Source: a virus | Direction: 5' to 3' (one strand) | Virus record (IMG/VR): IMGVR_UViG_3300039056_000005 | Location: 1 to 39,121 of that record | DNA length: 39,121 nucleotides | Shown here: positions 4,083 to 39,121 of the stretch, one piece after another | Layout of the letters: every line of letters begins with the position of its first letter | How positions within the stretch are numbered: the first letter of the stretch is position 1 | Program-made: the position numbers and the translations under genes | Notes under the pieces: model-generated | Seen by the model: only the letters and a program-made list of their open reading frames with translations | Told to the model about the DNA's origin: nothing | Database searches by the model: none

Positions 4083-5454
4083 CTTCAACCTCCGCATACG
4101 CGCCCAGGATGGCCACGGGAATCGGATCACTGATCTGCACCCGATACTGCCGCTGGCGGAACATGCCCAGCCGGTTCCAGGCCACCCGGGTTAGGTAGTT
4201 TCCGGATTTGCCAATGGCAGACCAATACTCATGGCTCCACGTCCTGCCGCCATCGTCGGACCACTGAAGCATTGCTTGAGGATTGTCACCCTGGCCGGTC
4301 ACCAGGCCAACGCCACTTTCCATATCCAGCTCCAGGCGGTGCATGGTAGCGCGGCGGCGGTTGGCATGAAGCGGCGGCGATACCGCAATGCGTCGGATCT
4401 CGTCGGTATTATCGGTGTGAATGTTCAAGGCCATGGTGTAAATGTGGCCATTCTGGAAGTCGCCCACCAGGTGCTGGCCATAAGCGTATACGTAGCACCC
4501 GGCATGGTGCCGGCCCCAGCGGTAATGGCTGCGCTCATGCCATAGGCCGGTGGATACGTCGAACACCACGGTAAGGCTCTTTGATGGCAGGGTCAGCACG
4601 TAGAAAGCGTGCCCCTCCTCAATGTAGGTATAAGCAATGGCGTCAGGGTTGTTGTCGCCTATGCGGGCCTCGACAGCGTGTGTGCTGATCCTCATGGGCT
4701 GGTAGCCAGATGCCCGATACACAATGCCATCATCACCCAGCCAGAACACGGTATTATCCAGTTTGTCGGCGCTGTGCGGTGCCTGGCATCCTTTCTCAAT
4801 GAAGGCGCCCTGCATCCGCTCAAACGGGAAATCTACATCGCCACTGTTGTACCAGACCTCAATAGAATCCGTGCCGAATACCCACAGCTCCCGGTGATCT
4901 GACAACACGGCAACGGTATCATCCGGCGCCCCTTCCGCTGTCGCAAACCGCAACGGGTCAAACTCGGTTGATAGCAGGTCTGAAAGGAAGAATTGCCCGG
5001 TACCGGCTCGGTTGAAGATGAAATAGCCATCCTGGTAGGTGACGGTTGTTGCCGGGTACCAGCCATCGCCTGACAGCTCCCGCAATCCTTTTTCCTCGCT
5101 GTAGGCATAGCCTTTGATGCCATCGACAAACACCAGATCAATGCCGTTGGTGGCAATGGATACCGGGCCTGATTGGCTCACATCACCCATTTCGGTGGGC
5201 TGTCCAGCATGGTCAACGTGATACAGCTTGCTTGCCGTGACGGCATACAGCTTCTGGTTAAGTTTGTGAATGGCTTTCACGGGCGCCGTGGGCAGTCTGG
5301 CAAACGTCCATGTTCCCGGCGTGCCATACAACGCCACAGGCGTCTTGCTGTCTGGCGGCAAACCTTCAGCGTACAGATTCACCAGGCGCGAACCATTGGC
5401 GGCCTCTGCCCTGGTCTGATTACTGCCGGTTGCCCACTGAATCGGTCGCATCAT
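4069..5454 (-). CDS. P22 gp10-like tail accessory / packaged-DNA stabilisation protein, 461 aa
   Basis: Its length (461 aa) is close to P22 gp10 (472 aa). The N-terminal pattern, with ANGSRLVNLYAEGLP, LYGTPGTWTF and later FGTDSIEVWYNSGDVDFPFER, is typical of that family. The protein is beta-strand-rich with repeated short blades such as VSIATNGIDLVFVDG and DGYFIFNRAG, consistent with a beta-propeller-like plug. In P22 this protein closes the portal channel together with gp4 and gp26 after packaging. It starts at an ATG overlapping the stop of the gp4-like gene (TAATG) and is followed by a small tail gene with 14 bases of overlap. Family recognition is by eye from motifs and gene order. Confidence 0.85.
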   Translation of the reverse strand: MMRPIQWATGSNQTRAEAANGSRLVNLYAEGLPPDSKTPVALYGTPGTWTFARLPTAPVKAIHKLNQKLYAVTASKLYHVDHAGQPTEMGDVSQSGPVSIATNGIDLVFVDGIKGYAYSEEKGLRELSGDGWYPATTVTYQDGYFIFNRAGTGQFFLSDLLSTEFDPLRFATAEGAPDDTVAVLSDHRELWVFGTDSIEVWYNSGDVDFPFERMQGAFIEKGCQAPHSADKLDNTVFWLGDDGIVYRASGYQPMRISTHAVEARIGDNNPDAIAYTYIEEGHAFYVLTLPSKSLTVVFDVSTGLWHERSHYRWGRHHAGCYVYAYGQHLVGDFQNGHIYTMALNIHTDNTDEIRRIAVSPPLHANRRRATMHRLELDMESGVGLVTGQGDNPQAMLQWSDDGGRTWSHEYWSAIGKSGNYLTRVAWNRLGMFRQRQYRVQISDPIPVAILGAYAEVEDARH

Positions 5455-18501: not shown

Positions 18502-19137
18502 TCAGCTAAGGGCGGTTACCACTGCCTTGAACAGATAATCCTTGCTGCGTTGCTCTTGCGGCAGGTTCTCGTAGGCAGTCACGCACGGATGGCAACGGGC
18601 AACGGCGTCTTTCACGTCACCATGCACCCAGCCATCGTTCAGCTTTTCTTCCAGCCAGCTGTTGTGGCTATCTTCCGGTGTGGCGTCCGGGTTCTTCTGG
18701 TGAAAGGCCACACCCTTGATGGCGCTCTCCTTCTGCCAGTCCGGCGCTTCTTCCCACGGTACCTGGCTGTTGTCGCCCAGGGATTTGCAGTAGGCGCGGT
18801 TCACTTCATGCGCCAAGCGGGCAATGCGTTCAGCGTTAAAGCTCAGTTTCCGGTAGGCTTCTAGCTTCCAGATCTCGCTGAATGCGTTGTCGTAGCTGAT
18901 CTTCCGGACAATCTCGTCGCGCCAGTTGGCAGGGTCAATGCAGGTCGCGGGCTTGCCCACCACCACAAAACCGTTATCCATCCGGATGCCGCAATACATC
19001 AGCTTCTGTCCGGCAATCACTACGGTTTCATAGTCCACGTCGACAATGCGGGATTCGATCAGGGCGCTGGTGATCTTGTCGCCATCACAGCCCAGGTCAC
19101 GCATCATCTGTTCCACTTCGGTATGGTTCATAGCCAT
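18502..19137 (-). CDS. Phage Gp49-type plus RyR-domain protein, 211 aa
   Basis: The N-terminal 80 residues (MNHTEVEQMMRDLG, SRIVDVDYETVVIAG, NGFVVVGKPATCIDPANW) match the small Gp49-like phage family. The C-terminal half, from about residue 105, has the RyR repeat pattern: IARLAHEVNRAYCKSLGDNS, PWEEAPDWQKESAIKGV, TPEDSHNSWLEEKLNDGWV and a final helix. RyR domains were named from ryanodine receptors but also occur in bacterial and phage proteins, where some bind nucleotides. The fusion suggests a sensor or effector domain on a phage early protein; ligand and role are unknown. It begins with MAM and has AGAGG upstream. Confidence 0.75.
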   Translation of the reverse strand: MAMNHTEVEQMMRDLGCDGDKITSALIESRIVDVDYETVVIAGQKLMYCGIRMDNGFVVVGKPATCIDPANWRDEIVRKISYDNAFSEIWKLEAYRKLSFNAERIARLAHEVNRAYCKSLGDNSQVPWEEAPDWQKESAIKGVAFHQKNPDATPEDSHNSWLEEKLNDGWVHGDVKDAVARCHPCVTAYENLPQEQRSKDYLFKAVVTALS

Positions 19138-20038: not shown

Positions 20039-20398
20039 TTACTCCTGGCTGTCCTCCGGATATGGCTTTCTGGCCGGCAGGCCATCGCGGTCAAAGATCT
20101 GCGCCTGGTTCTCGGCAAAGAACGTCAGGGCGCCACGGCTGCCAACGTGCATTGGCGTGCTGGTGGTGTTGTCCTCGCTCATGCTGCCGCGACTGGTCGG
20201 GCGCTTGTACTTCAGCGTGTGGTCAATCTGTACCTGGTGGCTGTTGCCGATCTGCTTGATGGTGAATGAGATATCCACCTTGCCCAGCTTGCCTTGGTCA
20301 ATCACGGCGCCGGCCACGTCACTCAGGATCTGTGACAGCTTTTCCTCAAACACGCCACCATCCAGATCCTCGATGAATTTACCTACCTTAGTTGGCAT
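20039..20398 (-). CDS. Conserved early phage protein next to DUF2303, 119 aa
   Basis: I start it at ATG 20396-20398, preceded by AAGGAG and overlapping the end of csrA by 11 bases; the longer frame from 20434 is unlikely. It reads as an alpha-beta protein: an N-terminal helix (VGKFIEDLDGGVFEEKLSQIL), beta strands (VDISFTIKQIG, VQIDHTLKYKR), then a polar C-terminus (FFAENQAQIFDRDG). No catalytic motif is seen. It is encoded between csrA and the DUF2303 gene, so it is probably expressed early, but its role is unknown. Confidence 0.65.
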   Translation of the reverse strand: MPTKVGKFIEDLDGGVFEEKLSQILSDVAGAVIDQGKLGKVDISFTIKQIGNSHQVQIDHTLKYKRPTSRGSMSEDNTTSTPMHVGSRGALTFFAENQAQIFDRDGLPARKPYPEDSQE

Positions 20399-20576
20399 TA
20401 CGGCTCTCCTTCTTGCGTTGCGCGATTTCCTCACGGTCTATCGCTGTGTCACGGGACGCATTCACCCCGATCTTGATCTGTGATCCGTTGACAGCCAGCG
20501 GGAATACCTCGATCTTCTCCCCGCTCTTTGTCTCGATCACAATCTTTTCATTCACTCTTCGCGTCAGAATCAACAA
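20388..20576 (-). CDS. csrA: CsrA/RsmA-family RNA-binding regulator, 62 aa
   Basis: It is nearly the same length as E. coli CsrA (61 aa) and keeps the core: MLILTRRVNEKIVI, VNGSQIKIGVNA and DREEIAQR. The residues that bind GGA motifs in E. coli CsrA, Leu4, Arg6 and the Arg of REEI (Arg44), are conserved. The start is a rare TTG (20574-20576) seven bases after GGAG, inside the end of the exonuclease gene with 29 bases of overlap. The phage protein may bind host or phage mRNAs and redirect translation, touching carbon storage, motility and biofilm genes that CsrA controls in gammaproteobacteria. Alternatively it could tune phage mRNAs only. Confidence 0.9.
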   Translation of the reverse strand: MLILTRRVNEKIVIETKSGEKIEVFPLAVNGSQIKIGVNASRDTAIDREEIAQRKKESRNAN

Positions 20577-21159
20577 CTGCCAGCTCCTTCATTGCAAAGT
20601 AAATGTCCAGGCAAGCACGGGCGTCTGCCATGGCGCTGTGTGCGTCCTCCAGCTCTCTGCCCATAAAGTGCAGGTAGGCCTCAGACAGCTTCGGTGACTT
20701 GTACCCGTACCGGCCTTTGGGCTCCATCTGCATGATGGGCTTGGCCATGAGCATGGTGCAGTCGTGGTTCTCTTTCTCAGCCCACTGTTCCTGCACGTTC
20801 TCCGGGAAATACCGCTTGGTGGCAATCCGGATAATGCGCTGGTCGAAGGTGCGGTTGTGCGCCAGGCGCTTGGCGCCTCCCACCATCTGCAGGAACAGGG
20901 CAACGGCGTCAGCTTCATTCACGCCTACCTGGTTGGCCATTTCGGTGGTGATCCCGTGAATGTCGGTCACTTCCTGCGGGATCTCCCAGCCGTCCGGCTG
21001 AATAATCAAGTCCAGGCTCGATATCACCTTTTTGGTGTCCTCGTCCGCCAGGATCGCGGCAATCTGAACAATGTGCGGCTGGTGGTGGCTGTCGCTCGGG
21101 TTCTTCCAGTCCGGCATTCCTGATGTTTCCAAATCGTATACGCATATCAAATTATTCAT
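20548..21159 (-). CDS. DEDDh 3'-5' exonuclease (DnaQ/ExoX-like), 203 aa
   Basis: All catalytic positions of a DEDDh exonuclease are visible: Asp9 and Glu11 in VYDLETSG, Asp106 in HNRTFDQRI, and His174 with Asp179 in DAHSAMADA. The IHGITTEMA segment is the usual Exo II neighbourhood. There is no polymerase or other extra domain. Likely tasks are 3' end trimming during recombination or replication repair, alongside the annealing protein encoded upstream. The ATG overlaps the HNH gene's stop by four bases and its own 3' end contains the start of csrA. Confidence 0.88.
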   Translation of the reverse strand: MNNLICVYDLETSGMPDWKNPSDSHHQPHIVQIAAILADEDTKKVISSLDLIIQPDGWEIPQEVTDIHGITTEMANQVGVNEADAVALFLQMVGGAKRLAHNRTFDQRIIRIATKRYFPENVQEQWAEKENHDCTMLMAKPIMQMEPKGRYGYKSPKLSEAYLHFMGRELEDAHSAMADARACLDIYFAMKELAVVDSDAKSE

Positions 21160-21590
21160 GCTGATATCCTTCCTTTTGAGTCTCGATTTTTAATCGTTGG
21201 CCTTGAGTGAAGCCCGGTTTCATAGGCTTGCTTTAGCCCATTGCTGATTTTTGCCTTTGTTTCTTCGGTGTGTGTTGCGCCTGTTTTGTGGTGGCTGTTG
21301 TGGTCTGCTGGCGATATCAGTTCCAAGTTTTCCGGTCTGTCATCGCTTCTATTTTCGTTTTTGTGGTGAACATGCTCGTTTGGCAGCAATGCCCGACCCA
21401 ACACTGAAGACATAACCGCGCGGCTTCTTCTCAGATAGATACCACCAGCAACAACTTTTGACGAAAAGAACGGGTGCGGCCTTACTCTCACCCTCCAATA
21501 AGGATTCTTTCCTCTTGGCGCATATTCGCCAATTACCTCAATTCCATGAGGCAACGTATACAGTGGCTTTTTCTGCACAAATTTCCCCAT
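21156..21590 (-). mobile_element. HNH homing endonuclease gene, 144 aa
   Basis: An HNH enzyme: the active-site region is VHHKNENRSDDRPENLELIS followed by DHNSHHKTG (His75-His76, Asn88, His97/His100). The C-terminus HTEETKAKISNGLKQA resembles the NUMOD3-type DNA-binding repeat common in homing endonucleases. It sits between the coiled-coil protein gene and the exonuclease gene. Its base composition is poorer in G+C than its neighbours (for example runs of TTTTT and TTTTAATCG near 21180-21260), as expected for a mobile insert. It overlaps the exonuclease start by four bases, so the insertion has been accommodated without breaking that gene. No intron or intein is seen, so it looks free-standing. 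Confidence 0.85.
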
Positions 21591-26851: not shown

Positions 26852-29107
26852 TCAGTTCCAGCTATTGCCTGTGCTTTTGATTGTAGCACCCACTGCTGAT
26901 ACTCTTCCTGTAATTGAGCCATTACTGCAACCGCTGACAATTACAAAATCTGACGCCTGCATCCGTATATCAGAGCCTGAAATCGCCTGAGTGAAATGGC
27001 AGGCACTAATTATCGCATTTTTTGCATAAATACCATCTATGTGATAAGCGGTGTTAAGGTCAAAACTTACGCCGTTAACGATGAGCGTTGCTTTGTTCAA
27101 GCTGTTTCCGTTTAGATATAACCCCCTTGATCCTGCCCCTTTGATGCTCCCGCCGTTAATCACATACTTTATTTCTGACGCTGATGGTATATTTTCAAAA
27201 AGAATTCCCCCAGTGCATTCATCAATGTCATTGTTTGAGAGGAATAAGCTTTTCATGAATCCAACCCTTATTCCATAAAGTCCTCCAGATACGACATTGC
27301 CACTAACAGTGCATCTATAACTTAATGTTGCTCCGTCTGCCGGACCTTGTATGTATATGCCTGAGTTGTTTTCTCCGGATAAGCGAATAACGTTATTTTC
27401 GCAAACCCAATCAGTCACATCTTCTGCAATTGTCGAGTGAGTCATGGCGATCGCAGAGGATGAGCCTGCATTGTTATCGCCATCAACAATATTATTTGAA
27501 CAAATTACGCGGTTGCTTCTTGTTATCTTAAATGGCGTATAGTAGTAATCTTTTGCTGTGTTGTTAGTAATTACTGTGTTTTCTGACCTATTGTAAAGAT
27601 CTACGCACCCAATATAATGAAATCCGCCTGTTATCGGCTTTCTCTGTCCAACCCTCTCAAAATAACAGCCATCAACAACAATGCTGCTATAGCTGTGCAG
27701 AGATATATCTTGTACATCAAATATAAAACCACCACCAGCAGCGTCAGCAACCAAAACAGATGAATTCTTGACAATGCAGTTAGTGAATCTTACGTTAGCG
27801 GTCGTGCTTGAAATTCTGAAATTTACCGCCTGAGTTTGTTCGCCAGTTATTCCGGTTGCCTCTGCCATATCGTAAAATTTGCAACTATCAATTATTGCCG
27901 TGTCAATTGGAGCGTTTGGACAGTGCACACCTGAAAAAACTGAGTTGATAAATGTAACACCTAAAACCTCTATGTTTGTACCTGTAAAATTAATACATGA
28001 CTTTAGCCTATCAGTCTGATTTGATTGATTCCCGTCAAAGGTTATATCGCCATCAATGAAGATAGAATCTGTTGCAGAAATCATATGGCTATTGCTTAAG
28101 GCGGCGAGAACAATTTTCGAGGAGCCTGTACAGGTCAAATAAATACTGGCTACTGAGGATAGCCCTGTAATGCTGTATATCGCAGAATCTATTAATTCCA
28201 CAGGAAGTTGAAGAGAAAGCACAGAGTTCAGGGAGGCAGTGTCATCAGCAGTTCCGTTTCCGACAGCGCCAGCCATTTCAGGGGTTAGTTTTCCTGAAAG
28301 AATTCTTTTAAATCTTCCGGTTGTTATCGAAGTAGCTTTAAAGATTGTTACGCCATTAGCGGTTTCTGTGCTTGTAGCATCCCAATAAAACGGACCGCCG
28401 CCAACATCCGTGCCTGCGTAATATCCTGTTACCTCATATCTCGAACCATCAGCAGGCTCAGAGGCAATAGCCTCAAGCTCCGCCACACTACCCACATAAA
28501 TGGTGCGCTTGTCCAGAGCCTGAGTCACCGTGTCAGAGGTGCCGGTGTGGGATACTAGGTCGGAGCCAAGGGACGAAAAAGCAGCAACTATGTTTCTTTC
28601 TGCATATTGTGCTGTTGAAGATATCGTGGCGCCGTCGAGCATACTTAATTCAACGGTTGTTTTTCCGTCTGCATAAGTGGCACTGACTACAGTGCCAAAA
28701 ACAAAACCAAAGTCCTGCTTCACCCGAATCGCAACGCCTTTCACGTATTCATCGGTCAGCCCACCATCCACAGTGAACGTGGTGGTGTTCACCTGCGTGA
28801 TATTGCGCTGGCGAACCCACTCCTTCTGAAGTTGGCTCGGATCACTTACTGGATCACTGGTCCAGACTTCTACATCGTCGGCATCCTTCACCACGACTTT
28901 GTAGCTGCCGTTCAAAAATATATCGGCATAACCTGCGCCATTCAGGATTACAGGGTTGGCGTTCTGTGTTTCTCCGCCCTCAGTAGTGAAGGTTGCTTTA
29001 GGTGTGTTAGTTCCTGCCTGGTAGGTGTAAACCTTGCCGAAGGCCAGCGGTTTTCCGGTGTCGCTGTCCCAGGCGTAAAACTTGGGACCAATGATTGCTA
29101 CTGCCAT
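26852..29107 (-). CDS. Tailspike / receptor-binding protein with beta-helix, 751 aa
   Basis: Residues 1-110 are the conserved adaptor that plugs podovirus spikes to the tail: MAVAIIGPKFYAWDSDTGKPL, FGKVYTYQAGTNTPKATF, VILNGAGYADIFLNGSYKVVV. Residues about 110-270 form a stem and linker (TLTPEMAGAVGNGTADDTASL at about 273-293 opens the spike). Residues 275-745 are a right-handed parallel beta-helix, with repeated strand and turn patterns such as NVRFTNCIVKNSS and NNTAKDYYYTPFK, as in polysaccharide-cleaving spikes. The helix-coding part is markedly AT-rich compared with the adaptor part. It would bind and probably trim a surface polysaccharide. The catalytic residues are not identifiable by eye. 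Confidence 0.88.
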   Translation of the reverse strand: MAVAIIGPKFYAWDSDTGKPLAFGKVYTYQAGTNTPKATFTTEGGETQNANPVILNGAGYADIFLNGSYKVVVKDADDVEVWTSDPVSDPSQLQKEWVRQRNITQVNTTTFTVDGGLTDEYVKGVAIRVKQDFGFVFGTVVSATYADGKTTVELSMLDGATISSTAQYAERNIVAAFSSLGSDLVSHTGTSDTVTQALDKRTIYVGSVAELEAIASEPADGSRYEVTGYYAGTDVGGGPFYWDATSTETANGVTIFKATSITTGRFKRILSGKLTPEMAGAVGNGTADDTASLNSVLSLQLPVELIDSAIYSITGLSSVASIYLTCTGSSKIVLAALSNSHMISATDSIFIDGDITFDGNQSNQTDRLKSCINFTGTNIEVLGVTFINSVFSGVHCPNAPIDTAIIDSCKFYDMAEATGITGEQTQAVNFRISSTTANVRFTNCIVKNSSVLVADAAGGGFIFDVQDISLHSYSSIVVDGCYFERVGQRKPITGGFHYIGCVDLYNRSENTVITNNTAKDYYYTPFKITRSNRVICSNNIVDGDNNAGSSSAIAMTHSTIAEDVTDWVCENNVIRLSGENNSGIYIQGPADGATLSYRCTVSGNVVSGGLYGIRVGFMKSLFLSNNDIDECTGGILFENIPSASEIKYVINGGSIKGAGSRGLYLNGNSLNKATLIVNGVSFDLNTAYHIDGIYAKNAIISACHFTQAISGSDIRMQASDFVIVSGCSNGSITGRVSAVGATIKSTGNSWN

Positions 29108-29132: not shown

Positions 29133-29142
29133 ATTATAGCCT
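29133..29142 (-). promoter_or_regulatory. Candidate promoter box before the tailspike
   Basis: AGGCTATAAT on the leftward strand, containing a perfect TATAAT, lies at the stop codon of the giant gene and about 25 bases before the tailspike start. The same ten bases occur before the scaffold gene. No good -35 box is seen, so an activator may be needed, or the match may be chance. Confidence 0.4.
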
Positions 29143-32100
29143 ACGGCATTTCGTCATGTACTTGCTCCAGGGCATCCTTGGCCTGGCGGTAAAATTTCTC
29201 AAGAGCCCGGTTTTTCTGCTCATAGTAGCTTTCAATCGCTGATTCTTTCTGCTCGGCAGTCATGTTCTCGTTGTACTTGTACGAGGCTATGATTTCCTGC
29301 TGATCGTCAAAAGCATTGTCGATCTGACTGAAGGCGCCATTCAGGCCAATCAGGATCTGGTTCACCTTATCCCCGGCAAACTCCGGCGCCTTGGATGGAT
29401 CACGGATGGCCTCACGCTGCAGCATGTTGAACGTCTGCTGTGCGGCGGCGGCCTTTACCTTCAGATCCCAATAGCCTTCTGTCCATTTTGTCCGGTATGG
29501 CACTTTCTGGCCAACGAACTGGTGCGTCATGTAATCAATCGGCGCGCCCCGGTTGAACGGGCGCGGCCCCCAATCGTCCTGCTTCCACAGGGCGGCCTCT
29601 GACGCATCGGCAATAATCATCTCCACATAGCGCAGAAATCCCTTGCTGTAGTGCTCTGCCACCAACGGTGATACCCCCAGGTATTCACCCAGCTTGCGGT
29701 ACATGATGGGCGTGCGGTCGGTGTACTGGTATTCAGCCGGGATATCCATCATGTAATGCGGCACCACGGGCGCCCCGGTGAACTTCTCATTGCGCTGAAC
29801 TTCTACCCAGGGCTGAAGGATACCGGGATAATCCCCGATACCAACGGTGTTCACCAGGGCCCATGCCAGGTGTTCGGATGCTTCTTTTCCGTCCCTTTTC
29901 TTCACATAGTCCAGGCCTACTTCCGGCAACGTGGCAAAGATATGGCCAAGGTCATACGGGCGAGGGATCTTGAACGGCGTGTCGGCGCCGGGGATGAAGA
30001 TCCACCAGAAGCGGGCTTTCTGGTCTGGCGTCAGCTGCTGGTACCGCTCATCATCCTGGTTCAGCAACCACAAGATCACACTCATCATGGTCAGCACACT
30101 GCCTTTCATCAGGAACACGGCTTTTTTATCAGTCATGCGTGCCAGGTTGGTGCCTTTCATTTCCCCGCGGATCTCGGAAAATTCCCGGGCGGCCTTGTCC
30201 AGCCCCTGAATGCCGGCGTTCATAAACGGCACGGTGCGCAGGAACTTGGCCCACAACTCATTGCGGCCCATCTTGCTAAAGTCGGTAGCGATCTCCCTGG
30301 CCTCCCAGGCGGCCTCCATCGGTGACGTGCCTTTCTTCACACCCAACTCATAATCACCAATGCGCGAACCGTACTCGAAAGCGCTGGTGAAGCGGTCCCA
30401 GCCGGCCAGGAACTTTGCGGCCGCATCCCAGCCGGATTCGCTCGGCAGGTCCAGCCGGCGCCGGTCGCGGGTTTCCTGTGTCCGGGCCTCGATCCTGGTA
30501 CCGTAACCGCCACCCTGCAGCCGGAATTCCTTGTAGATCTTGGTATTGAACATGAAGTGCCCCATGCCCTTGAGCGTGCTGTAGACCGGAATGAATCGGT
30601 TGCGGCTCATAATGGCGGAACTGACAGTATCCCTGACGGCGTTCGGCCCCAGGAACTGGAACATGCTGGTAACCGTCCGGGTCTGCAGGTTCTTCACCCG
30701 GTACAGAGCATTCATCACGGCGCCACTGCGAAGCCCGCTCAGGCCGGTGAGCATATCCACCAGCAACGGCTCATGCACTTCAAAGTACACCCGCTTGCCA
30801 TTCACCACGGCGCTGTCCACGTAGGTTTCCGTGGTCTGCGGCTTGTGCCCGAAGGTCCAGAAACTCAGCAATGCCGGGTTGGCTTCCAGGGCGGCGGCGA
30901 TATCCTCCACGTCCGTCACCTGTGCGTCCGGATCTCCGGCCATAATCATGCCGTCCTTGCTCACGGTCAGCCCCATTTCCGCCATGGCCTCGGCCATCTT
31001 GGCGGCCATCTGTGCCTGCTCAACCTGCACCTTCTTGCTGTCCGGTGCGATCTTCGCGGCAAACAGGGCGCCGTCCTGGCTGTTCATAATGTCGTTGTAG
31101 AGCGTTGCCTTGGCGCGGGCGATAATGGCGGCCCGTATATTCGATTGCAGGCTTTCGACAATGTTTTCTGCTATTTCCCGAGTGTTTTGATACCCACCCC
31201 TTAGCTGACTTTGTATGTCACCAGCGCCCATTTCGTGGCCATCCTCAATGCGCTGAATTACACGATGGAACGGCACGTAGTTCTGGTTCATCTTCTTGAA
31301 AGCTCGGCGCTGGCTTTCGTCAATCAGCCCCATCTGCACGTAGAAATCCAGCATCCTGCCATTGAACTTCTGGAACTCATCGAACACCTGCGGGAATTCC
31401 GGGTATTTCTGGCCCAGGGCAAGGCCGGCGTCAATCTCCTGGTCGGTGAAAAGGTTTTCTCGGCCCTGCTTCATCAGTTCCTGGCCTCGTCTGGCCTTAA
31501 AATACTCCATAAGAGCATCAAACCTTGGCCACCCGTGTTTGGCCACTGGCTTAAACACCTCATTCAATCCCTTTCCGCTGAACTCAAAGTAACCATCTTC
31601 AGTAAGCCTTGGCGTGCCGTCTTTCATGACGGCCTCATGCACGGATTCGGCGCCGTTCAGCATCTGGAACTGCTTGTACGGGCTCACCATGGCTTCGCCA
31701 ACTTCGCCCTTCAGCGTGCGCTCAACCACCTTGGCAGCATGGATCTTGTCAATCACCTGCTGACGATACCGCTCCAGTGGGTAACTGCTCTGGTATTCGA
31801 TTATCTGCTGCCTAGGCGTTAGCTCACGGCCAGACTTGGCCCGAAACTGTGCCCGTGGCCCCTGCAGGTACCAGCGGTGCATTTCGTCCTGCAGGCGCTT
31901 CATCTTGCGATCCAGCACGGCATCATCTTTCATCACCTGTTCAAACCTCTGCGTGAACAGTGGTGCCCTGGCCTTGGCCTCGCTGTAGTTGGTCAGCCAC
32001 AGGCGCACGAACTCGGCAAAACCTTCCTTGGCCTTCAGGTTCTTCTTGCTGGTGTAGCTCAACGCCTCCACTTCCTTGCGGTATTTGCTGTCCTTGTACT

Positions 32101-35100
32101 CCCGGGTAAACCGCTTGTTGTAGCGGTAGTGCATATCCAGGTAGTGCGCCATTTCGTGCGCCATCACCTCTACATTGTCGTAGCTCTTCACCCGCACTTC
32201 GCTGTTGTTGCTTCGGTAAAAGCCCAGCTTTGACTTGCCCTGGACTTTTCCGAAGTAGATACGCTTTCCAATCAGATCCTGCAGCATGAACCGGATACCC
32301 TCACGGCGGGTCGGTTTTTCCTCCGGCTTCAGGGTTACGGTGCGATCCCCAATCTTGAATTTGCTGTTGTCCGGGCGCCGTGGCACGCCTGTCATGCTGT
32401 ACGGTGGCTGCCACTTAGGCATGGGTACATCGGCCCCCATATCGCTCATCATGGCGCTGGTGGCGTCCTGGCTGGTGGCGTCCTGGTCCTTTTTGGGCTG
32501 CAGCTCGGCAATCACCAGCTGGTGGCGGGCCTTAACCTTTGACAATTCCTCGGCCTGGTCCCACTCCTGCACCTGTTCTTCCAGCTTTGGCAGATCCCTT
32601 TCGGCCTGCTTCACCCGGGCGGCCTGCTGTTTGGCCTCGGCGTCGATGGCTGAAATGGTGTTGGCCACCCTGCGCGCCAGGCCGGTGGCATCGGCGCTGC
32701 CGATATCCTTGATATCCACCTGGTGTTCCAAGGCGCCGTCCAGGGTCAGCACAAACCGTGTTCCGGTGACATTATCCAGGGTCATATCAAAACCGGCATA
32801 GCTGCCAATGGCCTTGGATTCGGTACCGGCGTCTGACATTTTCGCGGCTTCCGCCAGGATCTCCTGGCCGGCGTCCTTGTGCTTGTCGAACGTCTGGCCA
32901 TTCACGGTGATACTGAAGTCTTTGGGCGCGGCCTTGGCCTTCTTCACGTCCTGAGCGTACTTCAGCAAGCGATCCTTGCCCCGCTCCACAATAGATTTTT
33001 CGCGGCGGATGGCGTCACGGATGCGGAACTGTTCGCGGTCGTGTTCTTCCTCGGCCTGTTCCAGCTTTCGCAGTTTCTGGCGAAGATCCATTTCTTCCAG
33101 GATCAGCGGATTGCCACTTGATGCCGCTTTCATCTCGGCGGCGTTGGCTGATTCCGCTCCCAAGTCCTCGATCTCGCGCTGTTTGGTGTTGCCCTTGCGC
33201 ACCTGCTCGATAAACCGAGCCTTGGTTTCGATGGTCTGCCACATGCGGCTGTCCAGCGTCTGCTTGGTGGCGTAGCGGTTGATCTCGATTTCAAAGCCAT
33301 TCGGGTCACGGTCGTACAACTCGTTACCCTGGCGGATAATCCGGCCTTCCCGCTGTTCCAGGTCTGACGGCCTCCACGGTGCATCCATGTGGTGGAGCCC
33401 CACCAGGCGGGTCTGCACGTTCATGCCGGCGCCCATCTTGGCAGTGGAGCCCATCAGCACGCGAACACGGCCTGTGCGCACCTTGGCGAACAATTCAGCC
33501 TTCTGCAGCTCGGTGTTGGCATCGTGGATATAGGCCACTTCCGATTCCGGTATGCCTAGGTTAATCAGCTTCTGGCGCAAGTCGTCATACACACTGAAGT
33601 CGCCATCCAGGGCTTCCAGCTCGTCCGGGCTCATGCGGTCCAGCTGTTCGCTGGCGGCCTCGTCGCCATCCTCGGCACGTTGGATCAGGTCACGGATTCT
33701 GTTGGCTTCCTGCGCCTTGGCGCCCTTGGGCGTACTCAGGTCGATGAATACCAGCTGCGCACCCTTGTCGTCGGCCCACTGGTCGTACAGTGTTTTAATC
33801 CGGCTGGCGGCCTCGTTGATCTTGCTGTCTGGGTTGTCGACGTACAATGCCGGGTCGATCAGGCGCATATCCAGGGCGGCCTTCCGGGCATCGCTCATAA
33901 TCTTGAGCATGTTGTCGGCGCCCTTCTCCGGCTTCTTCGGCAGGTGTTCAGCACGCCATACCAGTGAGCCCTTCGGATAAACCTCGTTGCCCCGCTCATC
34001 CTGAACGGGCACGCCAATGTAATCGGCCTGGTCCTTGCTGCGCTCCACAACAATGTTATTCGGCTTCCCGCCCTTGATCTTCGGTACCGGAAGGCGCTTG
34101 CCCTGTGCCGCCAGCTGCTTGTTGATATCGTCGCGGTTTACCACGTCACCAAAGGTCAGGTACCGCTGCATCAGCTCGGGCAGGTTCACGAACTTTCTGA
34201 AACGGCTGTTCAGCTTGTAGCTGCCCGTTGGTGACAGCTCCCAATCGGTGACCACTTCCCCGTACATGCGTGCCCAGGCATCGAAGTGTGCAATGCCCTG
34301 GTCCTGCAGGGTCTGGTAATCCAGGAACCGCTGCATCGTATACATTTCCGCCATGGTGTTGCTGATTGGCGTGCCGGTGGCGAATACCACGTTGTTGCCG
34401 CCAGTGCGCTCCAGGATGGATTGCACCTTCATAAACATATCGGCGGCCTTCTGGCTGCCCTGCGGGTTACCCAGGCCGGCAACGCGGGTCATGCTGGTGG
34501 CAAAGCCCAGGTTCTTGAACTCATGGGCTTCATCCAGGAACAGGGCATCCACACCCAATTCACCAAAGGTCAGGTTATCGTCCTTGTTCTCGGCATCGAA
34601 CAGGCGCTTCAGCCTTTCCTGAAGGCGCTCTTTCTGCTTCTCGATCTGCTTGATGGACCGGGCGCCCTTGCCTTCCTGGTCGCGGATAGTGGAAATGGCG
34701 GTGTCGATATCCCGGATCTGCTGGTTGATAAACCGTTCCTGGAACTCGGCATCCATTTCGACCTTGCCAAACGAGGAATGCGCCACAATCACGGCGTCCC
34801 AATCCCCGGTGGCGATCCTGGCGAACAGGCGCTTACGGTTACCCTTCTCAAAGTCTTTCTTGGTGGCGGCCAGAATGTTGGCGTTGGGATACAGCTTGGT
34901 GAAATCCTCGGCCCACTGGCCCACCAGGTGATTCGGTACCGCGAACATGGGCTTTTTGGCGCGGCCTGTCCGGCGTAGCTCCATGGCCCCGGCGATCATG
35001 GTGAAGGTTTTGCCGGCGCCCACTACGTGATCCAGCAACGTGGTACCGCTCTGCACAATCCGCCAGGCGGCATTGGCCTGGTGCGGACGCAACTTCACAA

Positions 35101-38100
35101 TGTCGTCGCCCACCTTGCCAGGGAACGTCAGGTGCGAACCGTCATACTTCCGCACGCGGTCGGTGTTGAAGGTGTCGTTGTAGAGTCGAACTAGGCGATT
35201 ACGGCGGGCATCGTCTTTCCAGATCCAGCGGCGGAACTCCGCTTTCACCCGTTGAATCTTCTCGTTGGCGGCGTTGGTGGCGGATTCGTTGATAACGGTG
35301 GTGTTTTCGTCCACTCGATCCCGAATCACTATGCTCTTGTCGTTTGCCGCGGCGGTCAAAATATCGCTCACCTGCGCACGGTCGGTACCGTACTGGCTTT
35401 CGGCGGCGGTTGTCGGGCTGCCTTTGATGTTCCACTTGGCCATTACCGGGTTGTAGGTTGCCTTGCCGCTGGCGTTACCCAGGATATGGTCGGCAAACTC
35501 GGTCACCACTTCCGGCGGCAACCAGTGGGCGCCAGGCTTCACCCGGATATCGACGGCTTCAATGTCCTCCGGCTGCACATCCTTCAGGGCCTGCACGTTG
35601 CGCTCAAAGCGCGGCATATCCTTCGCCATGCGCTCGGCCATGGCCAGCTTCTGCTTCACGTTGCCGGACAGGTATTCGTCGCGGGATTCCCAATTATTGG
35701 GCGTACTCTCGAAAACCAGGTCGCCCAGCTCGGCCACAATGGCGCTTTCCGTCTTGCCGTACAGTTGGCTCATGTACTTCATATCCACCCGGCCCTTTTC
35801 GGACAGGCTGGCGGTCAGTGCATCCTTGGCGGTGGTGGCTTTCTCCGGCGCCTTGTAGGGCTGCTGTGTCCGGGTCCGGAAGATGGCGGCCTTCTCGGCG
35901 CTCGGCTTGCGCGGGGTTTCCCCGGTGCGCTTGGCCACGGTCGGGCTGATACCCTTATCAAAGGATTCTTCCAGGGCGGCCAGCTGCGGCCAGGTTGGAT
36001 CATCCCGGAATAGGCGCTTGTTGGCATCCAGGTTGATGGGTCCGTTCTTCTTTACAAACTGGTCATACACCCGGTTGAGTCGGTCACGCAGTGCGCCCAG
36101 GGCCTCGTCCTTCACGTTTTCGGTCAGCTGCGCCTTACGCAGATCCGCGAACACGTCACGGACCTTAATCAGACCACGCACCCGTTCTTCGGCCTTTTTG
36201 CTCGGCATTTCCACGGGCTCAGACCGGGCCTGCCCCATTTCGCTTTCCAGGCGGATGCTGATCTGGTCGCCATCCAGGAACATGCTGCCCACCTTCACGT
36301 TCTCCACGCTGGTCGGCAGGGTTACTTCCTCGGATACCGGCTCAGTGGTGGCGGCGTCCATAAAGTCTTTTGGCAGGCTGGCCAGGGCTTCCTGCAGTAG
36401 CGCGTTGGTGTCTTGCCCCTGCCTTGCCACCAGGGCAGGCTCATTCGGCCCGTACATCGAACCGTAGGCGCCCCATTCACCCAGCATCATCCCCGGATTG
36501 CGGTCGAAGTATTCGTTTAACGGTACCTCGATACCCTTGGCATCCTTCACGGTGTTGACCACGGACCAGGATTCACCAGACGGCTGCTCTCCCTCCCGGC
36601 GCTTACGCAGAAAGATGATATCGGTAGTGACTTCGGTGCCGGCGTTCTTCAGGAATGCGTTGTTCGGCAGTCTCACAGCGCCCAGCAAGTCGGCACGCTC
36701 GGCCAGGTAATCACGCGCCATCTTGTTGTTGCCGTCCATCAGGCGGCTCGATACCACCATGGCCAGCACGCCATTGGGTTTCAGGCCGGCCATAGATTTG
36801 GCGAAGAAGTAATTGTGAATGCTCATTTTCGACAAGGCTTTGCGCTTGCCGTCATACAGCTTCTGATTGCCAAACGGCGGGTTACCAATGGCCAGGTCAA
36901 AATAGCCATCCGGCATGTTGAACTCTTGAAAGCCCATCGGTGCCTGAATGTTGGCGCCAGGGTACAGCTTCTGCGCAATGCCCCCGGTGATATGGTCCAG
37001 CTCCACCCCGGCAATGCTGCTCTTGGATCTCACGCCACCCGGCATGAATCCCAGGAAGTTGCCGGTACCAACGGATGGTTCCAGCACGCGGCCACCCTGA
37101 AAGCCCATGTTCTTCACGGCCTTCCAGATCTCGGTGACAATCTCCGGGCTGGTGTAGTGGGCATCCTGCGTACTGCGGCGAGCGGCGTCATATTCTGCTT
37201 CGGTCAAGGCCTCCTGCAGCTGTTTGGCCTCCTTCTCCCAGCCCTTGGTGATCTTGCCGCGGTCACCCACAAAGGCTTGAGGCAGGCCACCCCAGCCCAC
37301 ATAGCCGGCCAGGATCTGCTGTTCCTCCGGTGTGGCCTGGCGGCCTTCTTCGTTCAGCTGCTTCAGTGTCTGGATGGCTTTCAGGTTGTTCTTGAACTTG
37401 GTTTTGGCCCCGCCAGCACCAATGTTCATTTCCGGCGTCAGTGTGAAGAACTTGGCCGGCCTGTCGCCTGCTGGCTCTGCTCTCTGCGTTGTTGCGCCTT
37501 TTGGCGTTGGCGCCTTCTTTGCCGCTTTTTCTGTCGCATCTACGCTTCCCTCAGATCCTCGGGTTGCGGGCTGTCTGCTTCCAGCGTCCTGCTCATCGTC
37601 TGCAGGGCGTCGCTCAGTATCGCGGGTCCGTTGCCCGCCGGCTTGTCGTTCTCCGGTTCCCCCGGTGGAAACAGGTACGTTTCCCTCACCATCTGAAACG
37701 CCTCGTCCGGCTGGTACCCCGCTTCCTCCAGCTCGATCACCTGCTGGTACGTCTGTTCCGCTGCCTGTTTCAGCATCGGGTCCAGCGTCCCCTGCTTCTT
37801 CAGGCTCTGATACAGCTTCGGCCTGTTCTCCTTCCAGTGTTCTCTGGCCTGGTTGATCCAGTTCTGCAGGTTCATCCTGTGTTACCTCCGATGGTCGCTC
37901 GGCAGTGTCACCCGGCGTACCTTGGTCCCGGGCGGCAGGCTGGCTAGAAACTCCGGCGTCACCTCCGGACCTTGTGACGCCTGGCGGGGTTTCGCCTCGG
38001 CCTGCTCGTTGCCCGGTGCGCTCCCGCTCTGCCTTTTGGGCTTGTAGCCCTCGTTCTGCTGCTTCGATCGTTTCCGCTGTGCCATAACTCAGCCCTATTC

Positions 38101-39104
38101 CACGCTTGGTGATTACCTCACCACTCGGTAGCTCAAATTCAATAATAGCGTTTTCCAACTCTGCAGCCACTTCCTGCATCAGCTGTTCCGCTTCCTGTTG
38201 GGTATTGGCCTGCACCCAAAACTCATCACCACTCGGATGATACGCATCGGCGCCCTTTGCTTTGAATGCGCGGCCAATGGCCTGCAGCATCTGATCCCCG
38301 GCGCCGTGGCTCATGTTGTCGTTGATCCACTTCAGGGAATCGGCGTCAACTGATACCTGTACAGGCTTGCGCTCGTTTTCCTCATAGGCGCGGCGGTTGC
38401 CCAGGCCGGTTAGATCATCCTCAAGCAGTGCCTGGCGCATTTCGTCCTGTGTCATTTCAGCGACACGGCGGCGGGTTTGCGGGTCTTGTCGGCGCTCTAC
38501 GTTCGCCACGCCATCACCCTTTCTATCTTTTGCCTGAGCCAGTGCTTCAAGCGCGTTATCCCAATTTCCGGATATCGGCGTATCTCCTTCAGCATCAAAT
38601 GCTTGGAATGTATCGTCCCTGCGATCCTGAATCAGTTTTATACCGGGATCGTCGGTGTAATACGTGTAGATATCGAGAGGATCTTGCCAAACCTTGCCAG
38701 CCTTTCCTTGGAAATCAGGAAATTGGCCGTCTTTAATCTTGTTTGGCGTTTGGCCATCATAGCGCCGTTTGGTGGTTGCGGGCTCTGGCGCCGGAATATC
38801 CGCCAGCATCTGCCTGGCCTGATCGGCTCGCATATCCCACAACTGCGCATCAGTCACCCCGGCATCCCGCAACTGGTTGCGCTCAAACGGCGTCAGATCA
38901 TCAGCGGCCTGCCCGGTTTCCTGCCCGGCTTCTTGCTCAGGCTCTGGCCGGTCTGCTTCTTCCGGCGGCCTCACTGGCTGCAGCGGTACGTTCATATCCT
39001 GCGGCATTGCACCCTGGCGCGGCGCGATATCAATGCCCCGTTCTTTCAGCTTCTGCGCTACCAGGTCACCCATAGTCGGGCGCTCTGGTGCCCGTACCTT
39101 CTCA
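29141..39104 (-). CDS. Giant polyvalent protein: GGDEF, DNA methylase, SF2 helicase, zincin and C-terminal ejection-type domain (partial, 5' end missing)
   Basis: The frame is open from the primer tag to a TAG at 29141; the first Met (39073) has no ribosome site, so this is the rest of a longer gene. Numbered from that Met (3,310 residues): GGDEF domain 215-350 (DLTGLGNRR 220-228, SGDEF 281-285); disordered linker 350-540; adenine methylase 590-830 (EPSVGTGNF 665-673, NPPFG 731-735); SF2/SNF2 helicase 1325-1950 (GAGKT 1352-1356, DEAH 1514-1517, ATGTP 1565-1569, QREGRIIRQG 1907-1916); coiled coils about 1990-2190; zincin HEMAH 2306-2310 with likely third ligand Glu2354 in GFAEFVRLW; long C-terminal domain 2440-3310 (NAVRDT, hydrophobic helix 2990-3004). 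Methylase-helicase fusions such as P1 DarB protect incoming DNA; large phage polyvalent proteins are thought to be ejected with it. Confidence 0.9.
37540..37875 (-). CDS. Overprinted gene nested in the giant gene, 111 aa
   Basis: In a second frame of the same strand, GGAGGT lies eight bases before ATG 37873-37875. The product is a helical, normally composed protein: NLQNWINQAREHWKENRPKL, then TLDPMLKQAAEQTYQQVIEL and GYQPDEAFQMVRETYLFPPG. It reminds me of small phage proteins of the W....RP..Y..LK..G type with a VRE.YLFPPE-like end. By hand count about 83% of its codons end in G or C, like nearby genes, while the giant frame over the same bases has only about 30% in the 30 codons I counted and encodes low-complexity Gly/Ala/Pro/Glu/Arg text. 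Function unknown. It stops at 37540 (TAG). Confidence 0.6.
   Translation of the reverse strand: MNLQNWINQAREHWKENRPKLYQSLKKQGTLDPMLKQAAEQTYQQVIELEEAGYQPDEAFQMVRETYLFPPGEPENDKPAGNGPAILSDALQTMSRTLEADSPQPEDLREA
37882..38085 (-). CDS. Overprinted gene nested in the giant gene, upstream partner, 67 aa
   Basis: In the same frame as the 111-residue nested gene, ATG 38083-38085 opens a basic protein: a Lys/Arg/Gln-rich start (AQRKRSKQQNEGYKPKRQ), then VTPEFLASLPPGTKVRRV and a stop at 37882, which overlaps the next gene's GGAGGT ribosome site. About 79% of codons end in G or C. The start has only a weak site (GAGTT), so it is less certain than its partner. It could bind nucleic acid, judging from charge alone. 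It begins in codon 330 of the visible giant frame. Confidence 0.45.
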   Translation of the reverse strand: MAQRKRSKQQNEGYKPKRQSGSAPGNEQAEAKPRQASQGPEVTPEFLASLPPGTKVRRVTLPSDHRR

Positions 39105-39121
39105 GATCGTGACTGGGAAAC
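39105..39121 (-). other. Library primer tag at right end
   Basis: Reverse complement of bases 1-17. In the leftward strand it starts the window with GTTTCCCAG and reads in frame with the giant gene for five to six codons, which are artificial. Phage sequence ends at 39104. Confidence 0.9.

Follow-up and report, generated by a model that had tools for sequence, protein, structure and literature searches.

A phage-borne CsrA-family regulator gene at a fixed junction in a run of recombination-type genes

We analyzed a 39-kb virus record (39,121 nucleotides, referred to as the window) that is largely collinear with Vibrio phage VvAW1, and found that it encodes a phage-borne regulator of the CsrA family. 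The gene is real and lies on the minus strand at 20388-20576, where it encodes 62 amino acids from a TTG start. The product is probably a phage CsrA/RsmA-family protein that binds GGA-hairpin RNA and, to the advantage of the phage, changes how host mRNAs are translated or how stable they are; we infer its dimeric state, RNA binding, expression and targets. Phage-borne csrA has already been described, and the window gene is a genuine but ordinary example. The additions here are a fixed cassette site, a hairpin extension specific to the clade, and the separation of csrA from a GGDEF domain.

Translation of the minus strand at 20388-20576 gives LLILTRRVNEKIVIETKSGEKIEVFPLAVNGSQIKIGVNASRDTAIDREEIAQRKKESRNAN and then a stop codon. 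An earlier note on this DNA had reported a phage-encoded CsrA at this position and gave no strand; the plus strand of the same interval has an internal stop and does not encode CsrA. On the minus strand the claim holds, because the product matches the Pfam CsrA family (PF02599) at 52.3 bits against a cut-off of 27 (E=5.4e-14, profile positions 2-52 of 53) and PHROG 9500 'CsrA-like regulator' with E=1.4e-18. In phmmer, solved RsmA/CsrA proteins align over nearly the whole protein with E about 2e-9. The NCBIfam csrA equivalog cut-offs were not reached (49.2 vs 70.1 for TIGR00202; 52.3 vs 73 for NF002469), and the window CsrA is therefore a diverged member of the family. A chance open reading frame was ruled out by the family scores, the conservation of the gene in the members examined, and the purifying selection described below.

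The TTG start, also proposed in the earlier note, is well founded. A ribosome-binding site, AAGGAG, which contains GGA, is located 7 bases before the TTG (20584-20589, minus strand). Upstream of the TTG, the frame is open for just four more codons, and none of them is ATG, GTG, or TTG. The second codon is also TTG; the first is favored because homology begins there (M1-L2-I3-L4), with the protein aligned from residue 1 to the M1 of CsrA. Start codons vary among the nine csrA genes compared: three use TTG (the window and the related contigs L003 and L004), five use GTG (L005-L009), and one, VvAW1, uses ATG.

We aligned 27 CsrA proteins and found M1, L2, L4, R6, E10, G31, Q33, G37, A40, R48, and E50 (numbering in the window protein) to be invariant. 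By alignment to solved CsrA/RsmA proteins, R48 corresponds to R44 of E. coli CsrA; L4 and R44 are reported to be critical RNA contacts in characterized CsrA proteins (PMC7652899). R7 is present as well, so equivalents of L4, R6, R7, and R44 are all found, as expected from the earlier description of conserved RNA-contact residues. The predicted monomer (26 sequences; pLDDT 82, pTM 0.51) shows a beta-rich CsrA fold with a C-terminal helix, in which beta1 and beta5 are not formed. A Foldseek search with this model returned CsrA/RsmA chains as all of the first 14 matches, with TM scores of 0.62-0.73 for the first 12.

The window protein thus resembles bacterial CsrA/RsmA (PDB 7yr6, 1vpz, 2bti, 2jpp) in its predicted fold and in these RNA-contact equivalents. 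It differs from them in falling below the equivalog cut-offs, in having Asp (D47) where CsrA has H43, and in carrying four additional residues from beta2 to beta3. These residues (ETKS, codons 15-18; 20523-20534, minus strand) extend the beta2-beta3 hairpin; the extension is four amino acids long in the window clade and three in VvAW1, and is absent from all 18 other aligned sequences. The RNA preference may differ because of the longer hairpin and the replacement of H43. It is very improbable, in our judgment, that the two changes make the protein a specificity variant, either with a different set of bound RNAs or one that host CsrB-type sponge RNAs fail to titrate. If this were true, the phage CsrA would stay active while host CsrA is shut down. 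On the window, Rfam gave no match to a CsrB/RsmX-type RNA up to E=1.

The csrA gene, placed by the earlier note in what may be an early operon, is part of a same-strand run of recombination-type genes. The end of a DnaQ/RNase T-type 3'-5' exonuclease gene (20548-21159, minus strand) overlaps it by 29 bases, and its own end is overlapped by 11 bases by a gene for a phrog_204 protein (20039-20398, minus strand; the ATG at 20398 was chosen by homology). The exonuclease gene is upstream of csrA in all eight relatives (L002-L009). The phrog_204 gene after csrA is intact in L003-L006 and broken or replaced in L007-L009. Further along the same strand, at 18502-19137, the window encodes a protein that joins a Phage_gp49_66 domain and an RyR domain.

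We searched for related exonucleases and recovered 22 viral loci; five of these belong to csrA-carrying contigs recovered before, in which csrA comes immediately after the exonuclease gene. The other 17 loci, together with the added records of Vibrio phages vB_ValP_FGH and 1.211.A and Shewanella phage X14, gave no CsrA match (0/20 records, several of them fragments). In vB_ValP_FGH and in one of the exonuclease loci (L033), the phrog_204 gene directly follows the exonuclease gene. This junction and the absence of csrA beside related exonucleases indicate that csrA is accessory and occupies a fixed junction. The clade offers a natural comparison of related operons that differ in the presence of csrA at this site, which would allow a clean test of the effect of phage CsrA on infection. 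In a scan of genome contigs, 13 loci matched at 43-50% identity. The exonuclease-csrA arrangement was present in none of them, and the scan thus turned up no close prophage relative.

HNH endonuclease genes flank the junction, at 21156-21590 (minus strand) in the window, upstream of the exonuclease gene, and at 27714-28298 (minus strand) in VvAW1 (L002), between csrA and the phrog_204 gene. HNH genes are a possible driver of cassette exchange. In L009, recombination has left a scar at the cassette site: a displaced 3' csrA fragment (4837-5064, plus strand) lies behind an inserted gene and beside the complete csrA. We considered a second csrA paralogue in L009 and rejected it, as this piece is a displaced part of the same gene.

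In the reading that we favor, translation of csrA would take place on the mRNA of the recombination-gene operon and would probably be coupled to that of the exonuclease gene that it overlaps. The protein would form the usual domain-swapped dimer, and the dimer surface with L4, R6, and R44 (R48 here) would bind GGA-containing RNA hairpins. The translation or stability of the bound host mRNAs would then shift to the benefit of the phage. Candidate targets are mRNAs for metabolism and surface structures, and possibly those for defense. Published csrA genes of phages and plasmids make host reprogramming of this kind plausible by analogy.

The earlier note had linked this reprogramming to a planktonic/sessile switch made up of CsrA and a GGDEF domain in the giant protein of the phage. 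The domain itself stands: Pfam places it at residues 219-348 of the 3310-amino-acid open reading frame of a DarB-like polyvalent protein (38030-38419, minus strand; 27.1 bits, cut-off 23.8), with SGDEF in place of GGDEF. GGDEF-type domains in phage polyvalent proteins have been described previously (PMC5512222). The pairing did not find support. The domain was detected in none of the 14 other csrA-carrying records searched, several of which are fragments, and it is skipped in G001, the closest of the longer relatives (csrA 94% identical), where the match of the giant protein covers residues 1-225 and resumes at residue 358. Thus, csrA and the GGDEF domain are not inherited together, and we rejected a linked CsrA-GGDEF module as unsupported. 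The difference between the window and G001 is a domain-level insertion or loss. Both ends of the window lie inside the giant gene (N-terminal part at 1-1112 and the remainder at 29141-39121, both minus strand); as given, the two parts have no common frame, and the terminal sequence therefore probably lacks bases or contains errors.

Phage CsrA may instead regulate phage mRNAs, either its own operon through the AAGGAG sites of csrA and its neighbors or the choice between lysis and lysogeny. Two features are consistent with this: csrA belongs to a phage operon whose genes overlap, and its ribosome-binding site contains GGA. The earlier note had suggested a search for GGA motifs in phage leaders, and this gave no hairpin enrichment. 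By a crude rule (ANGGA in the loop of a stem of at least 3 bp, from -60 to +20, in 41 window leaders with the giant-gene leader left out), such hairpins occurred in 3 of the 41, below the mean of 6.5 in the flank-shuffled control and near the mean of 4.2 at random positions; 197 of 200 flank shuffles reached three leaders. Any ANGGA was present in 18 of 41 leaders versus 12.2 at random positions, a surplus expected from ribosome-binding sites. The phage's own leaders therefore show no sign of being CsrA targets by this simple-hairpin rule. We consider regulation of phage mRNAs unlikely, and the lack of a GGA-hairpin excess weakly favors host targets over phage targets.

A more specific host effect would be anti-defense, with csrA repressing host mRNAs for CRISPR-Cas or other defenses; such a role has been proposed for the RsmA/CsrA homologues of phages. 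Campa et al. (2021) reported that RsmA represses cas operons and that phages carry RsmA/CsrA homologues whose presence is correlated with host CsrA; they also described a plasmid-borne RsmA that replaced RsmA in another genus (PMC8450108). For phage proteins, however, the anti-CRISPR-Cas action is put forward there as a proposal (PMC8450108), and we consider it an unlikely account of the window gene.

It is very unlikely that csrA is a decaying or neutral passenger. Its absence from phages with related exonucleases and the displaced fragment in L009 would fit such a gene, but csrA is intact in all nine members examined and evolves under purifying selection. In all 28 pairs of eight clade csrA sequences, dN/dS was at or below 0.5 (median 0.23), where the pairs are not independent and both csrA ends overlap neighboring genes. 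Delivery of CsrA in the virion, to act before phage transcription, is most improbable: one CsrA peptide was reported in purified virions of Burkholderia phage JC1, but its authors called it unconfirmed (PMC9144972), and JC1 csrA adjoins a capsid gene, whereas window csrA is among recombination genes.

Our favored reading, a CsrA acting on host mRNAs, concerns a gene with known phage relatives. Among 2517 phage genomes, Sobrero and Valverde (2020) listed 30 with csrA, VvAW1 included (PMC7366521), and the VvAW1 genome paper described the product of gene 26 as an RNA-binding regulator (COG1551; PMC3558961). This CsrA-like regulator (gp26, YP_007518368.1) is 49% identical to the window CsrA. Like the window gene, it directly follows a homologous exonuclease gene in a largely collinear genome and has the beta2-beta3 extension, but it has an ATG start and an HNH gene between it and the phrog_204 gene.

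Although phage csrA is widespread, E. coli phage PTXU04 was the only case we found with a reported infection phenotype. Knockdown of PTXU04 csrA by CRISPRi-ART gave smaller plaques, the role having been previously untested according to the authors (PMC11879866). PTXU04 gene 28 is likewise a phage csrA in a genome encoding a large polyvalent protein, but it is distant in sequence, lacks the hairpin extension, and adjoins a holin gene. Because of this distance, the phenotype transfers weakly to window csrA. Pseudomonas phage F116 (p24) and JC1 (gp47) also carry csrA, in other genome places than the window, and F116 p24 differs in having a long C-terminal tail. In the structural-gene region of F116, p47 (L053, 33363-33569) is annotated as CsrA-like and has no Pfam match; the clear csrA is p24. 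Further phage csrA genes are reported in J26 and CSP3 (PMC12038007, PMC10269572). A tblastn search of 50,697 phage records returned 89 with a canonical CsrA query and 10 with the window protein.
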